This document shows positions 9,348 through 38,130 of a stretch of DNA of 38,508 nt, one piece after another. Source of the DNA: Blastocatellia bacterium. GTDB lineage: Bacteria > Acidobacteriota > Blastocatellia > UBA7656. Each line of letters starts with the position of its first letter. The stretch's first letter is position 1. A program made the translations under genes and the position numbers. The notes under the pieces were generated by a model, which saw only the letters and a list, made by a program, of their open reading frames with translations, was not told the DNA's origin and did not search any database. The DNA lies in the NCBI GenBank assembly GCA_023265195.1, contig JAHFUG010000003.1:10210-48717 (forward strand), in the 5' to 3' direction.

Positions 9348-9589
9348 GGTCTGGAGTTTGGCCATTTATTCCTCCCCTCCGTAGGAGGGTCATGTTTATA
9401 GTACGTGTGGTGGGACGCTCCGCCCTCCGTAGGAGGGCCATGTGTTCTCTGAAATGGAGGCAGCCTTTATTGTTCGCTTGAAATACAGATGGACATGGCC
9501 CTCCTAACGGAGGGCGGAACATCCCGCCACACTACCATAAACATTGCCCTCCTACGGAGGGCGGAAGAAAAATGGCCAAGCTCCAGACC
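9348..9589. repeat. ~97-bp imperfect inverted repeat, each arm carrying two CCCTCCGTAGGAGGG-type hairpins at 48-bp period
   Basis: Left arm 9348-9443 and right arm 9493-9589 are near reverse complements; palindromes at 9375-9389, 9423-9437, 9499-9514, 9547-9561. Confidence 0.9.
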
Positions 9590-11240: not shown

Positions 11241-11309
11241 AAGGTCGAATTATTGCACGGCCCTCAGCAACTGTCGAAGAGAGAAGTCATTGTCTAAGTG
11301 GGCTTAAAG

Positions 11310-11485
11310 GAAATGAGTTCCCTTTTTCGAGGGATGTTCACCGCGGAGGCAAGGGACCGCGGAGATGGACGCAGAGTAGTCTTACTCTACGCGGCTTTCC
11401 GCCACTCCGCGGTGAGGTCCTCACTTCACCGCCGGTCCTCATCTCGTGCTGCCGCATAACTCAAAAACGGGAAGTTATGTTTTTT
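11310..11485 (+). repeat. Dispersed repeat family C, copy 1
   Basis: AGTTCCCTTTTTCGAGGGATGTTCACCGCGGAG...CCGCGGTGAGGTCCTCACTTCACCG...CATAACTCAAAAACGGGAAGTTA, shared with copies near 20.8 and 30.1 kb. Confidence 0.85.
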
Positions 11486-11526
11486 CAATTCCTACGGTAA
11501 GTTATTCTTTTGCGCCCTCTCTAAGG

Positions 11527-13630: not shown

Positions 13631-13688
13631 CTAGTCGTTTATGCTGATCGTTACGAGAAGCCTGTTCGCGTTTCCCGCAAGTACCACC
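13631..13688 (+). repeat. Dispersed ~58-bp repeat family F, copy 1
   Basis: CTAGTCGTTTATGCTGATCGTTACGAGAAGCCTGTTCGCGTTTCCCGCAAGTACCACC matches the reverse complement of 33401-33458 with about 8 mismatches. Confidence 0.9.
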
Positions 13689-13693
13689 CCGAG

Positions 13694-13763
13694 CTCCGAA
13701 CTCCGCACTCCGAACTCCGAACTCCGAACTCCGCACTCCGAACTCCCAACTCCGCACTCCGCC
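13694..13763 (+). repeat. Tandem heptanucleotide repeat CTCCGAA/CTCCGCA, 10 units
   Basis: Units read directly at 13694, 13701 ... 13757. Confidence 0.95.
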
Positions 13764-20815: not shown

Positions 20816-21005
20816 ACGCGTAAAAGAAATAGGTTCCCTTTTTCGAGGGAGTTCACCGCAGAGACCGCGGAGAGGGACGCAGAGGCGGCTTATTCTCCGC
20901 GGCTCTCTCCGCGATCTCCGCGACTCCGCGGTGAAGTCCTCACTTCACCGGCGGTACTCGTTTCGTGCCGACGCATAACTCAAAACGGGAAGTTAACTTT
21001 TTTAC
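20816..21005 (+). repeat. Dispersed repeat family C, copy 2
   Basis: CGTAAAAGAAATAGGTTCCCTTTTTCGAGGGAGTTCACCGCAGAGACCGCGGAGAGGGACGCAGAG...TCCGCGGTGAAGTCCTCACTTCACCGGCGGTACTCGTTTCGTGC...GCATAACTCAAAACGGGAAGTTA. Confidence 0.88.
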
Positions 21006-21100
21006 GCCTCCTTAATCAAAAAGAAGGAGAGGCCAAAGAGGACCGCCCGTACATTGTTCTGGAGAAACGAGTGCGGGGTTAGGACTCTGTAGCAAACGCC

Positions 21101-22130: not shown

Positions 22131-23372
22131 TCATTTCTTTATGTCTTCGAGAGGGGCGTAGTACCCCCGCCGATGAATGACGCGAACGTCAGCACGGTTG
22201 GCGATGTTGACCTCGATACGCCGGAACGCGCCGTCCCTGGCGGTGTTGGAAGGCTCGTATGCAATCAGATACTGGCTTCGCATCTCGTTTTCAATCTGAC
22301 GGAAGCCGCCTAGAAGCTCGTCGGGGTTTCGCGGGAAATAAGCGCGGCCCCCGGTTTCGGAGGACATCTTTCTCAACACATCTTCTCTTACGCCCTCGAA
22401 GCGGAATCGGTCACCGATTCCTATCGAGTAAATCATTACGCCCGAGCGCCATGCCCTGTCTATTGCGTCCTCGAGCTTGCGGTTGCTGGCGTTGTCGACC
22501 CCGTCCGTCAACAAAATGATAGCGCGCCGCGCGTTCGCTTCATCGCCTGACGCGCGAGCCTCGCCTCGCCCCAGAACCTCGTCGACCGTTATATAAACGG
22601 CGTCGTACAGCGCCGTGGCTTGGTTGCGCGGCGAAGTCGAAGCGAACCGCCGCGAGAACTCTATCTGATCCAGCGCGCGATTGACGGTCTCGATGCGAGA
22701 CGTGAGTCCCTGAGCCAGTTCAACGTCTTCTCTGAAGGTCAGTATGGCCGCAAGATCCGAGCTTGCGCGAATGATCGAATGAAGGAAGTATGCGGCGGCC
22801 ATCTTTTCCTGTGGAAACGTGAACTCCTGGCTGCCCGAGAGATCGATCAGAATCGCGATGCGGATAGGGAGATTGACCTCGCGCTTGAAGGTGAACACGG
22901 ACTGCGGGCGGCCGTCTTCGAGCACCTTGACGTCTTCTTGCCGCAGATCCCCTACGATGTGGTTCATGCGGTCGACGGCGCTGAAAACCACGTTCACCAG
23001 ATCGGTCCCAAGACGAACCGCCTGGTCTGACACAGGTATATCGGCGTCCGTTGTTTCTTTGTTCTGGTCTTTTCGGGCATCCTGCGATTTCGTTTGTTGA
23101 GGAGCCGGACGCGTCACCGGCTTTTGTCCGGGCTTCGTGCTTTGGGCGAGGGTAATCGACGCCAAAAGGACGAATGGGATCAAAGCCGCGGCTAAAGCCA
23201 ACTTGGGGAATTGATGATTGATGAACGGGAATTGGGAATTGATGATTGATGATTGATGAACGGGAATTGGGAATTGATGATTGATGATTGATGATTGATG
23301 ATTGATGAACGGGAATTGGGAATTGATGATTGATGAACGGGAATTGGGAATTGATGATTGATGATCTTTCAT
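22131..23372 (-). CDS. Secreted VWA protein (VWFA-related Acidobacterial-type) with repeat-encoded N-terminus
   Basis: MIDAS RIAILIDLSGS, AIILLTDGVDNASNRKLEDAIDRAWRSGVMIYSIGIGD; start ATG 23372 (or 23462) precedes a tandem repeat array and then a hydrophobic signal segment LALAAALIPFVLLASITLAQ. Confidence 0.85.
   Translation of the reverse strand: MKDHQSSIPNSRSSIINSQFPFINHQSSIINHQFPIPVHQSSIINSQFPFINHQFPKLALAAALIPFVLLASITLAQSTKPGQKPVTRPAPQQTKSQDARKDQNKETTDADIPVSDQAVRLGTDLVNVVFSAVDRMNHIVGDLRQEDVKVLEDGRPQSVFTFKREVNLPIRIAILIDLSGSQEFTFPQEKMAAAYFLHSIIRASSDLAAILTFREDVELAQGLTSRIETVNRALDQIEFSRRFASTSPRNQATALYDAVYITVDEVLGRGEARASGDEANARRAIILLTDGVDNASNRKLEDAIDRAWRSGVMIYSIGIGDRFRFEGVREDVLRKMSSETGGRAYFPRNPDELLGGFRQIENEMRSQYLIAYEPSNTARDGAFRRIEVNIANRADVRVIHRRGYYAPLEDIKK
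23203..23365 (+). repeat. Tandem repeat array D1 with variable TGATGAT heptamer counts
   Basis: AAT(TGATGAT)n...CGGGAATTGGG units with heptamer counts 2-3-5-2-2. Confidence 0.93.
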
Positions 23373-23512
23373 GTCTATTTGTCCTCGCTCTGCTTCATAG
23401 CGCCGTCCCCGCTTCACACCGTTATTCCGGCCAGTGATCAACTTGTTGACGTTCTCATCCAATGAGCTAAAAGCTAAACAGTCTCATTGAAAACTCCGCA
23501 TTCATTGATTCG

Positions 23513-23614
23513 CAATCATCAATCCCCCATTCCCCTCCCCGTTCATCAATCATCAATCTGCAATCATCAATTCCCCCATTCCCCTCCCCGTTCATCAATC
23601 ATCAATTCCCCTAA
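23513..23614 (-). repeat. Related repeat D2 in opposite orientation, two copies of CAATCATCAATYCCCCCATTCCCCTCCCCGTTCATCAATCATCAAT-like unit, period 48
   Basis: Units begin at 23513 and 23561; reverse complement reads ATTGATGATTGATGAACGGGGAGG... Confidence 0.9.
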
Positions 23615-30062: not shown

Positions 30063-30235
30063 CGTAAAAGAAATAAGTTCCATTTGTCGAGGGAGTTCAC
30101 CGCAGAGCCGCGGAGACCGCGGAGAGGGACGCAGAGGGGAGTTTACTCTCCGCGGCTCTCTCAGCGATCTGTGCGTCTCCGCGGTGAAGTCCTCACTTCA
30201 CCGGCGGTACTCATCTCGTGCTGGCCCGCGGCGCA
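30063..30235 (+). repeat. Dispersed repeat family C, copy 3
   Basis: ACGTAAAAGAAATAAGTTCCATTTGTCGAGGGAGTTCACCGCAGAG...TCCGCGGTGAAGTCCTCACTTCACCGGCGGTACTCATCTCGTGC. Confidence 0.88.
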
Positions 30236-30311
30236 TCAAGAGGGGCGGGCACGGAGACCCGCCCGTACATTCATCCAAAAGCGCGCGCAAACAACACCCA
30301 TTTAGCAGGCG

Positions 30312-32096: not shown

Positions 32097-32285
32097 CCGA
32101 GAGCCCGTAGATTTCGCCTTCCGATTTGACCGCGCGCCGCTGGAGCTTTGCATTGCTCCCGACCCTGCAGTTGGGGGATCGTTCAATACCAGCCTGCTAG
32201 CGGCGCTGGGCCATCAACGAATCTCCAAGGCGATCCGAGCCCTTGTTAGCGTGCCCACGAACGCTCGCGCGTTGGATAGGCTGCA

Positions 32286-32392
32286 TATGAACCATCCACC
32301 AGCTCCGTTGGGGGTATTTCAAGAAAAAGCCGCGGTGCGCCGTCTGTAGCGAGCGAATGAACGTATCCCCCAACTGCGTTGGGGGTATTCTC
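32286..32392. repeat. 71-bp hairpin repeat family B, two diverged units
   Basis: TGAACCATCCACCAGCTCCGTTGGGGGTAT and CGTATCCCCCAACTGCGTTGGGGGTAT; GTTGGGGG arms at 32307 and 32378, spacing 71. Confidence 0.8.
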
Positions 32393-34174: not shown

Positions 34175-35552
34175 CTATTGGGCGGAGCCAACTGGTATGC
34201 TCCGCTCGGGGTCGAGGGCGTTCCGCACTCGGTAGAATTCAGCTTCGAGGCTGGAGGCGAGCGGTAAGGGTTCCTGGGGTCCGGCCCTGCCTATCAACCG
34301 GCGTTCGATCCCGCCGCATATCTCGGACATGGCTCCGGCGCCGAGGCAGGCGCAACTGCTCTTCAAAGTGTGCGCGAGCCGTCTGATCTCTTCCCGTGCG
34401 CCGTTCTCGACGGCGCGCCTTAGAGCGGACACATTGATTGGAGCGTCTACGAGGAAGCGGTCGACAATTTCTTCCACGATGTCGCCCCCGTCCTTACTTT
34501 GTATGTCGCGGAGGGAAGCAAGGGCCGTCTTGTTTATCGCGCCCGGAGTCTCCGCCGCCCGATTCTTCGGACCGCTGGACCCGGCGCGTTCGAGAGCCGC
34601 CTGCCGCGCCCCTGTCTGTACCGGCTTTGAAATGTAGTCGTCCATCCCCGCCTGAAGGCGTTCCTCGCGGCCGCTTTGCATCGCATTGGCGGTCATGGCG
34701 ACGATGATCGGGCGCGCTTCTCTTGGCCACCGGCGGCAAATCTCGCGCGACGCCGCGAGACCGTCCATATCGCGCATTTGTATGTCCATAGGAACGACGT
34801 CGTGGGGCTGCCGCTCGAGCGCTTGGATCGCCTCGATCCCATTGCCCGCTATATCAACGCGGTAGCCGAGCCGCTCCAACATCTTCGTGGCGGCCTTCTG
34901 ATTCACGACGTTGTCCTCTGCAAGTACTATGCGAAGAGGCAGCCGCTCGGCGAGGTGGGGATCGAACTGGCCCTTGGCCGCCGGTTCTTTCGGCGCCGGC
35001 ACTTGCTCGAGGAACAATTGGATTAACACGTCATAGAGTTGGGACGGCTTGACTGGTTTCGTTAGAAATGCGGCAAACTCAGGTTCATTCGTTCCGGACG
35101 GAGCCGCGCTCCGCCAGCGGAGGGACGTCAGCATGACGAGTGGAAGCTGTTTCGGACCGCGATATCTCTGAATCTCATTCGCGAGGGTAAGACCGTCCAT
35201 TTCCGGCATGTCCATGTCCAGGATGGCCACGTCAAAAGGGTCCCCGTTTGTGACCCATTCGAGGGCAGTGATTCCACCCCTCGCAAGCCCGTGGCGACCC
35301 CACGATCCCGTTTGCAGATTCAATATCCTTCGATTCGTGGCGTTGTCATCGACAATCAGCACGCGCCGCCCCTTCAGTTGAGGTTGCGCTCCGCGCAAGT
35401 ACAAGCGGGCGGGACTCGGCGCGGCCTGCGCCACGATGTTGAAGTTGAATGAGGAACCCGAGCCAACTTCGTTGTCGACGGTCATTGTCCATCCCATCAT
35501 TTCACACAGCCGGTTGCTGATAGCCAGCCCAAGCCCCGTCCCTCCCCAAATC
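34175..35552 (-). pseudogene. C-terminal remnant of hybrid histidine kinase (partial HATPase G2 box, REC, REC, Hpt)
   Basis: Homology begins at GGTGLGLAISNRLCEMMG; REC1 RRVLIVDDNATNRRIL/LDMDMPEMDG, REC2 RIVLAEDNVVNQKAA/MDIQMRDMDG, Hpt RRLAHTLKSSCACLGAG; HisKA and most of HATPase absent, replaced by repeat array. Confidence 0.8.
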
Positions 35553-35915
35553 CCCCACACGGCAGTGTGGGGATAGTTCAGGCTCAACCTACAAGAACGC
35601 CGCCTTCTTCCGCTTCCCAAACCCCCCATACGGCAGTGTGGGGATAGTTCAAGCTTCGCGTACAAATGGAGGGCCGGCCTTCCCTGTTCCCTTCTCCCCA
35701 AGGGCGCGTGAAAGGGCTTTCCACAGCGAAGGCTAAGCTTGAACCATCCACCCACTGCCGTGGGTGGGATTAGGGAAGGGGAGCAAGGCCGCCGTTTGTG
35801 TTGGCTATGCTTGAACCATCCACCCACTGCCGTGGGTGGGATTAGGGAAGGGAACAAGGCCGCTGTTTGTGTAGGCTATGCTTGAACCATCCACCCACTG
35901 CCGTGGGTGGGATTT
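35540..35915. repeat. 71-bp hairpin repeat family B: two units in one orientation, three in the opposite
   Basis: CCCCACACGGCAGTGTGGGG at 35553-35572; CCCCATACGGCAGTGTGGGG at 35624-35643; GCTTGAACCATCCACCCACTGCCGTGGGTGGGATT at 35737, 35809, 35880. Confidence 0.95.
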
Positions 35916-36025: not shown

Positions 36026-36793
36026 ATGAGAATAGCTACATGGAACGTCAATTCGGTTCGCACGCGGCTGCCGCGGCTGATTTCCTGGCTGGGCCGCCGC
36101 CAGCCGGACGTCGTGTGCCTGCAAGAAACCAAAGTAGTGGATGAAGCGTTCCCGCTAGCCGATATCGAGGCGTTGGGGTATCACTGCTTGCTGAACGGCC
36201 AGAAAACCTACAACGGCGTCGCTATACTCTCCCGCGTTCCGCCCTCCGGCGCCGTGCGGCTCTTGCCCGGGGACGAGTCTGACGCCGAACGGAGAATCTT
36301 GATCGCAACCATAGACGGAATTCATATCGTGAATGTATATGCGCCCAACGGTGGCGACGTTGGATTGCCGAAGTACGCATATAAGCTCGAATGGTATCGC
36401 CGCCTTCGTGAGTTTTTGGAAAGTTCGTTCGACGCATCCGATGACGTGCTCATATGCGGCGACTTTAATGTTGCTCCCGAAGACCGCGATGTCTGGGATC
36501 CACAAAAGTGGCGCGGTCAGATATTGTGCAGCGGCCCTGAAAGAGAAGCTCTGCGAAACCTGACGTCGTGGGGACTCAAGGACGCGTTAAGGCTGCATAG
36601 TTCGGAGGGGGGGCTTTATACGTGGTGGGATTATCGGGCGGGCGCGTTTCATCGGGGTTGGGGATTGCGGATCGATCACATCCTGGTGACCGAGCCGCTT
36701 GCCAAACGTTGCACCGATGTCGAAATCGACCGGAACGAACGCAAAGGAGAGAAACCTTCCGATCACGCTCCGGTCATCGCAACGCTGGAGTGA
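36026..36793 (+). CDS. xthA: Exodeoxyribonuclease III
   Basis: MRIATWNVNSVRTRLPRLISWLGRRQPDVVCLQETK, NVYAPNGG, ICGDFNVAPEDRDVWDP, LRIDHILVTEPL, SDHAPVIATL; ATG at 36026. Confidence 0.93.
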   Translation: MRIATWNVNSVRTRLPRLISWLGRRQPDVVCLQETKVVDEAFPLADIEALGYHCLLNGQKTYNGVAILSRVPPSGAVRLLPGDESDAERRILIATIDGIHIVNVYAPNGGDVGLPKYAYKLEWYRRLREFLESSFDASDDVLICGDFNVAPEDRDVWDPQKWRGQILCSGPEREALRNLTSWGLKDALRLHSSEGGLYTWWDYRAGAFHRGWGLRIDHILVTEPLAKRCTDVEIDRNERKGEKPSDHAPVIATLE

Positions 36794-38005: not shown

Positions 38006-38087
38006 GTGCGAAATCCCGCGCGGACAAGCCCGGGCGCATTCTTCCCGCCATCAGGAGGGCGCTGTTATAGAAGAGATCGGCGTGAGC

Positions 38088-38130
38088 ATCCGCCCTCCGT
38101 TGGTAGGGCCGGCCCTCCTACAGAGGACGA
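38088..38130. repeat. Diverged family A hairpin pair
   Basis: CATCCGCCCTCCGTTGGTAGGGCCGGCCCTCCTACAGAGGACG resembles the 9.4 kb CCGCCCTCCGTAGGAGGGCC units, placed head to head. Confidence 0.65.

Follow-up and report, generated by a model that had tools for sequence, protein, structure and literature searches.

An inverted array of REP-like hairpins in a Blastocatellia genome and its association with genes for two-domain Y1 transposases

Introduction

How REP sequences originate and multiply is a standing question, and the TnpA_REP enzymes have rarely been caught moving anything. In transposase dimers of the IS608 type, the HUH motif of one subunit is paired with the Tyr of the other. The closest described systems are the REP/BIME repeats with their RAYT transposases, in which short multicopy palindromes preceded by a GTAG motif 0-2 nt from the hairpin occur as inverted copies around a Y1 gene encoding one HUH-Y domain (PMC2817692, PMC8266576). 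In REPINs the repeats form inverted doublets with a palindromic middle, and tandem clusters are also known (PMC3116915). Within the Acidobacteria, the Class 3 HuH proteins, with about 600 atypical hairpins in Solibacter, have been placed between insertion sequences and REPtrons; the same study cites earlier work on active-site sharing, and set aside unusually long proteins, taking them for fusions or errors of annotation (PMC6006769). Here we describe an inverted hairpin array in a 38,508-nucleotide stretch (the window) of the genome of a Blastocatellia bacterium, and the transposase genes found with the same kind of repeat.

Results

The array at window 35540-35915 contains five hairpin units at a spacing of 71-72 bp, two on the (-) strand and three on the (+) strand, which stand back to back and are directed outward from a 90-bp centre. 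The features of the region are as follows.

32272..32389, (+) strand: two degenerate units, CCACCAGCTCCGTTGGGGG and CCCCCAACTGCGTTGGGGG, 71 bp apart
34175..35545, (-) strand: hybrid histidine kinase remnant with the end of HATPase_c, two receivers and Hpt; 5' part missing
35540..35915: whole inverted array; folds as a single DNA strand at -104.7 kcal/mol against -64.9 +/- 4.0 for shuffles (z -10)
35541..35611, (-) strand: unit B1; hairpin 35553-35572, CCCCACAC-TGCC-GTGTGGGG in functional orientation; GTAGG at 35588-35592
35612..35682, (-) strand: unit B2; hairpin 35624-35643 with one C-A mismatch in functional orientation; GTAGG degenerate
35651..35740: REPIN-like doublet core, the 90-bp centre between the two innermost GAAC motifs, whose starts are 91 bp apart
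35702..35773, (+) strand: unit A1; hairpin 35748-35767, CCACCCAC-TGCC-GTGGGTGG
35774..35844, (+) strand: unit A2; hairpin 35820-35839
35845..35915, (+) strand: unit A3; hairpin 35891-35910
36029..36793, (+) strand: exonuclease III-like gene, downstream of the array

Read along the window, the first two hairpins are CCCCACAC-GGCA-GTGTGGGG and CCCCATAC-GGCA-GTGTGGGG (spacing 71), and the other three are CCACCCAC-TGCC-GTGGGTGG (spacing 72 and 71). None of 100 dinucleotide shuffles matched the window hairpins at up to three mismatches, far below what the window contains. The array in two orientations described in the initial annotation lies where it was placed, with five units rather than the proposed 5-7 and the two degenerate ones at some distance. 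Reverse-complementing the GGCA-loop set aligns the flanks of both sets as GTAGGTTGAGCYTGAACYATCC-hairpin-GGGATT, as had been claimed, and in the common orientation the order in every unit is GTAGGTTGAGCTTGAACNAT-hairpin-GATT and then a variable stretch rich in purines. The compensatory changes between the two stem types are likewise real, A-T becoming C-G at position 3 and C-G becoming A-T at position 5. The T-G wobble attributed to another unit exists on the (+) strand only; on the strand that reads GTAGG...GAAC-hairpin it is a C-A mismatch, and this unit loses its hairpin when folded in the functional orientation.

Comparison of the stems found beside different transposase genes (see below) extends the pairing well past the window. 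Across genes, 125 of 128 positions pair, as against a mean of 78.9 with permuted arms (0 of 20000 as high), and in the 16-sequence alignment 97.7% of cells are paired with a covariation score of 0.479 against 0.132 +/- 0.030 when shuffled (0 of 500), these statistics overstating the number of events since related sequences are counted as independent. Within the dominant type A, isolated single changes often break a pair. The data thus support conservation of the pairing between subfamilies and less so among individual copies, where it is not policed copy by copy, and the earlier proposal of a conserved folded form is supported at the former level and less so at the latter. Covariation of this kind could also be expected of a structured non-coding RNA transcribed from the arrays, as had been suggested; a single-stranded DNA substrate would give it equally, however, and the repeat has no Rfam match. 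Furthermore, one array has units in both orientations, the wobble in the window is a mismatch on the functional strand, and the layout of GTAG and hairpin is that of the single-stranded DNA substrates of Y1 transposases. We therefore regard an RNA family as very improbable.

The window array lies between the kinase remnant and the exonuclease gene, extragenic location having been looked at here only. The ATPase domain of the remnant retains only Pfam positions 71-107 of 111, with its GGTGLGLAI motif at about 35518-35544, and the break coincides with the start of the array. No N-box or G-box motif of the missing 5' half was found in the 34 array loci, and a search for kinase orthologues returned paralogue-like matches only (at most 52% identity). 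Genome G006, of the same genus, has an exonuclease orthologue (84% identity) with degraded kinase/Hpt sequence upstream and no array. The array is therefore in a decaying gene region and, from this comparison, would have been either gained in the present lineage or lost in G006. Since kinase/Hpt remnants also lie upstream of the G006 orthologue, an assembly artefact at the kinase-array-xthA junction is less likely, though the exact length of the window array is uncertain. In the genome G004, a REPIN doublet (C8:190500-190686) is situated just upstream of the exonuclease orthologue with an apparent tRNA gene between; as its neighbours differ, it is probably an independent insertion.

The window also contains other repeats: a second hairpin family, CCCTCCGTAGGAGGG / GGCCCTCCTAACGGAGGGC, at 9375-9565 and 38079-38110; a composite intergenic repeat, CTCCGCGGTGAAGTCCTCACTTCACCG, in three copies about 9.2-9.5 kb apart (11303-11493, 20819-21055 and 30063-30271); and heptamer-based tandem repeats (ATTGATG; ACTCCGA) at 23175-23606 and 13686-13762.

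The same genome (7.5 Mb, 686 contigs) contains about 157 matches to one unit, mostly in inverted tandem arrays at more than 30 separate loci, and a separate fuzzy scan of the 34 array loci and the window gave, by coincidence, 157 as well. Since the assembly is fragmented at these arrays, the number of copies in any one of them may be misjudged. Unit spacing is mostly 70-72 bp. Of the adjacent opposite units up to 200 bp apart, 16 pairs are arranged -/+ and 5 are +/-; the five come from loci that are nested or rearranged (C552, C100, C461, C101 and C468). The arrays reach seven same-orientation units outward on either side of a centre. The innermost GAAC starts are 92-95 bp apart in the C15, C136 and C461 arrays. 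A GTAGG motif occupies a constant position in 134 of the 153 units, roughly 16 nt away from the hairpin. At the inner edge of an array CCAAGG often takes its place, and the second stem type is frequent in the outermost units. G004 and G005, two more distant genomes, carry this unit in the form of isolated inverted doublets, about 190 bp in length and with a palindromic middle, and the site of one G004 doublet is empty in G007, where the two flanking genes adjoin directly. Same-genus G006 has zero unit matches.

The tandem 70-72 bp register and the near-identity of neighbouring units are what would be expected if recombination and slippage alone had spread a common tandem repeat, with the hairpins retained for a host role such as a terminator, a gyrase or IHF site or mRNA stabilisation, and host proteins are known to bind BIMEs (PMC2817692). 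Such a repeat would not readily account for the many separate loci, the consistent inverted layout, the association with Y1 genes or the absence from G006, and no T-run follows the hairpins in the sequences inspected. We consider this explanation quite unlikely. The suggestion in the initial annotation of a REP-like family is supported and extended, by the copy number, by the inverted doublets and arrays and by the cognate Y1 genes.

The likely driver of the repeats lies outside the window, in Y1 transposase genes that such arrays enclose or adjoin. There are 18 Y1_Tnp matches in the genome, and three of these genes (on contigs C279, C290 and C533) each encode two fused Y1/HUH (IS200-like) domains. 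The C279 and C290 genes sit between inverted hairpin arrays, type A for C279 and type D for C290, and the unit flanking C279 is the same as that in the window array; the C533 gene is bordered on one side by five 66-bp units. The three copies have diverged, two of them sharing 52% and 38% identity with the first, where autonomous movement of an insertion sequence would leave near-identical copies. The protein scores 130 bits against the NCBIfam IS200/IS605 transposase model NF033573 (cut-off 55) and 64.6 bits against the REP-associated REP_Tyr_transpos model, below the cut-off of 80.

In the nine near-complete aligned homologues the residues Y122, Q126, H207 and H209 are invariant. Domain 1 retains YxxxQ and has a broken HUH in all nine, and domain 2 retains HUH and has the Tyr replaced in eight, the ninth (L097) lacking the Gln. 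Matches to both domains are the ISDra2 and IS608 chains, with a Phe of domain 2 aligned to the catalytic tyrosine of ISDra2 TnpA. From this arrangement a single composite active site would be expected in each protein, with Tyr and Gln from domain 1 and HUH from domain 2, and since IS608-type dimers pair HUH and Tyr across subunits, one working site per chain would be the natural reading. In the tree, one branch separates the D1 domains from the D2 domains, which is consistent with a single fusion event behind the family. An AlphaFold model of L083 with L084, from a two-sequence alignment, has a pLDDT of 56, too low to bear on the composite site. In L031 (1415-2656) and L092 the open frames of the double-Y1 genes continue in frame through upstream hairpin units, and annotation may therefore add repeat-encoded N-termini.

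The double-Y1 family is rare. Within the class, 8 of 162 genomes have homologues, and the Pyrinomonadaceae MAG SH2 and the Armatimonadetes MAG CG2_30_59_28 also have them; a draw of 396 genomes within the phylum gave none in any other class, and plasmids gave only weak matches (<60% identity), the annotated ones being ordinary IS200/TnpB genes. At the level of the order, the gene is found in three of four genomes with unit matches versus none of four without; G005 (92% complete, 520 contigs) has about 17 unit matches and no gene found. Among homologues with flanking sequence present, hairpin units adjoin the gene in L083/L095, L084, L088, L089, L091, L096, L097, L098, L100 and L101, and the scan detected no unit at L099, which is at a contig end. 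The units beside homologues are 66-73 bp and in most cases inverted on both sides. As in a REPtron, the Y1 genes of C279, of C290 and of the majority of homologues whose two flanks are present stand between inverted copies of their own repeat. Nearly every gene has its own stem sequence (for example CCACCCAC, CCCCCAAC, CCATCGG, CCACCAAC, CCCCAACC, CCACCGCG and CCCCACGT), with 7-8 bp of pairing retained.

Another enzyme could in principle be responsible. The sequence GAGRCTGTGTGAAAA, with 49 copies in the genome (control 0), forms the ends of 149-204 bp elements, and these ends bound the type C doublet, so that the hairpins and Y1 genes might be passengers or targets of classical TIR MITEs moved by a DDE transposase. 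A TIR-bearing MITE does carry some hairpins in this genome and may move them by another route. Elements with GAGRCTGTGTGAAAA ends are inserted within hairpin loops at L129, L143, L148, L153 and other loci; as part of the loop is present on both sides of several inserts (L129, L148 and L153), the MITE appears to target REP-like loops, which suggests that it uses the hairpins as targets. Since the GAGRCTGTGTGAAAA ends are absent from the window array and many others, and in other genomes the hairpins flank double-Y1 genes, a MITE origin of the arrays seems unlikely.

Discussion

We propose that the array in the window is a non-autonomous mobile repeat of the REP/REPIN type, the unit of which is probably a substrate of the two-domain Y1/HUH transposase. 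The substrate would be a single strand of roughly 71 nt comprising GTAGG, about 8 nt, TGAACNAT, the 8-bp hairpin and GATT, and the gene at C279:1415-2245(-) is the best candidate for its cognate enzyme. In this model the enzyme would bind the hairpin in single-stranded DNA, for example on the lagging-strand template, and nick next to it with the one composite site. Inverted doublets would then move to new intergenic or non-essential sites, and repeated strand transfer, rolling-circle copying or slippage may add units outward, leading to arrays of the form (-)n-centre-(+)n. The analysis establishes the family with its copy number and layout, the covariation, the link between transposase genes and arrays and the conserved split of the catalytic residues; cleavage, mobilisation by the double-Y1 enzyme and the route of amplification are inferred.

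A further possibility, which we put forward tentatively and with slightly more doubt than belief, is that the family is a distinct Y1 lineage in which fusion replaced dimerisation and complementary decay then left exactly one trans-type active site per chain, and that the resulting asymmetric enzyme would nick single strands in turn and drive amplification of the hairpin arrays. If so, an asymmetric fused Y1 enzyme would represent a working route from insertion sequence to maker of genome repeats. This rare family unites a dimer whose asymmetry is built in, enzymes that nearly all have a hairpin of their own, and a visible progression from doublet to array. It supplies enzymes and substrates in matched pairs, on which recognition, nicking and the growth of arrays can be studied, and it lets one ask, in a case provided by nature, whether the jobs of the two active sites in an IS200-type dimer can be separated.

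Compared with the Class 3 HuH proteins, which are likewise acidobacterial, accompanied by many atypical hairpins and intermediate in character, the present enzymes have two domains rather than one, Y---Q rather than Y----Q, and GTAG rather than a CnGA foot (PMC6006769). They share the domain family and the YxxxQ/HUH motifs of the IS200/IS605 TnpA proteins IS608 and ISDra2, whose dimers share active sites between subunits, but here there are two domains per chain, each without the opposite half of the motif set. The doublets of G004 and G005 resemble REPINs (PMC3116915), and both these and the window array (z -10) would form a long hairpin, whereas here whole arrays extend up to seven same-orientation units outward on each side. 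The short high-copy palindromes, the GTAG 5' of the hairpin, the inverted copies around a Y1 gene, the gene-specific repeat type and the palindrome kept by paired changes are as in REP/BIME with RAYT; in contrast, two defining features differ: RAYTs as described have a single domain with intact HUH and Y where here two fused domains split the catalytic residues, and the GTAG of known REPs is 0-2 nt from the hairpin rather than about 16 nt (PMC2817692, PMC8266576). We found no description of a fused Y1 pair of this kind in the REP/RAYT/HuH literature compared, and an earlier description elsewhere is possible. The array and enzyme are therefore of the REP/RAYT (REPtron) kind in a new form, with a two-domain enzyme, GTAG 16 nt from the hairpin and tandem amplification around a doublet.
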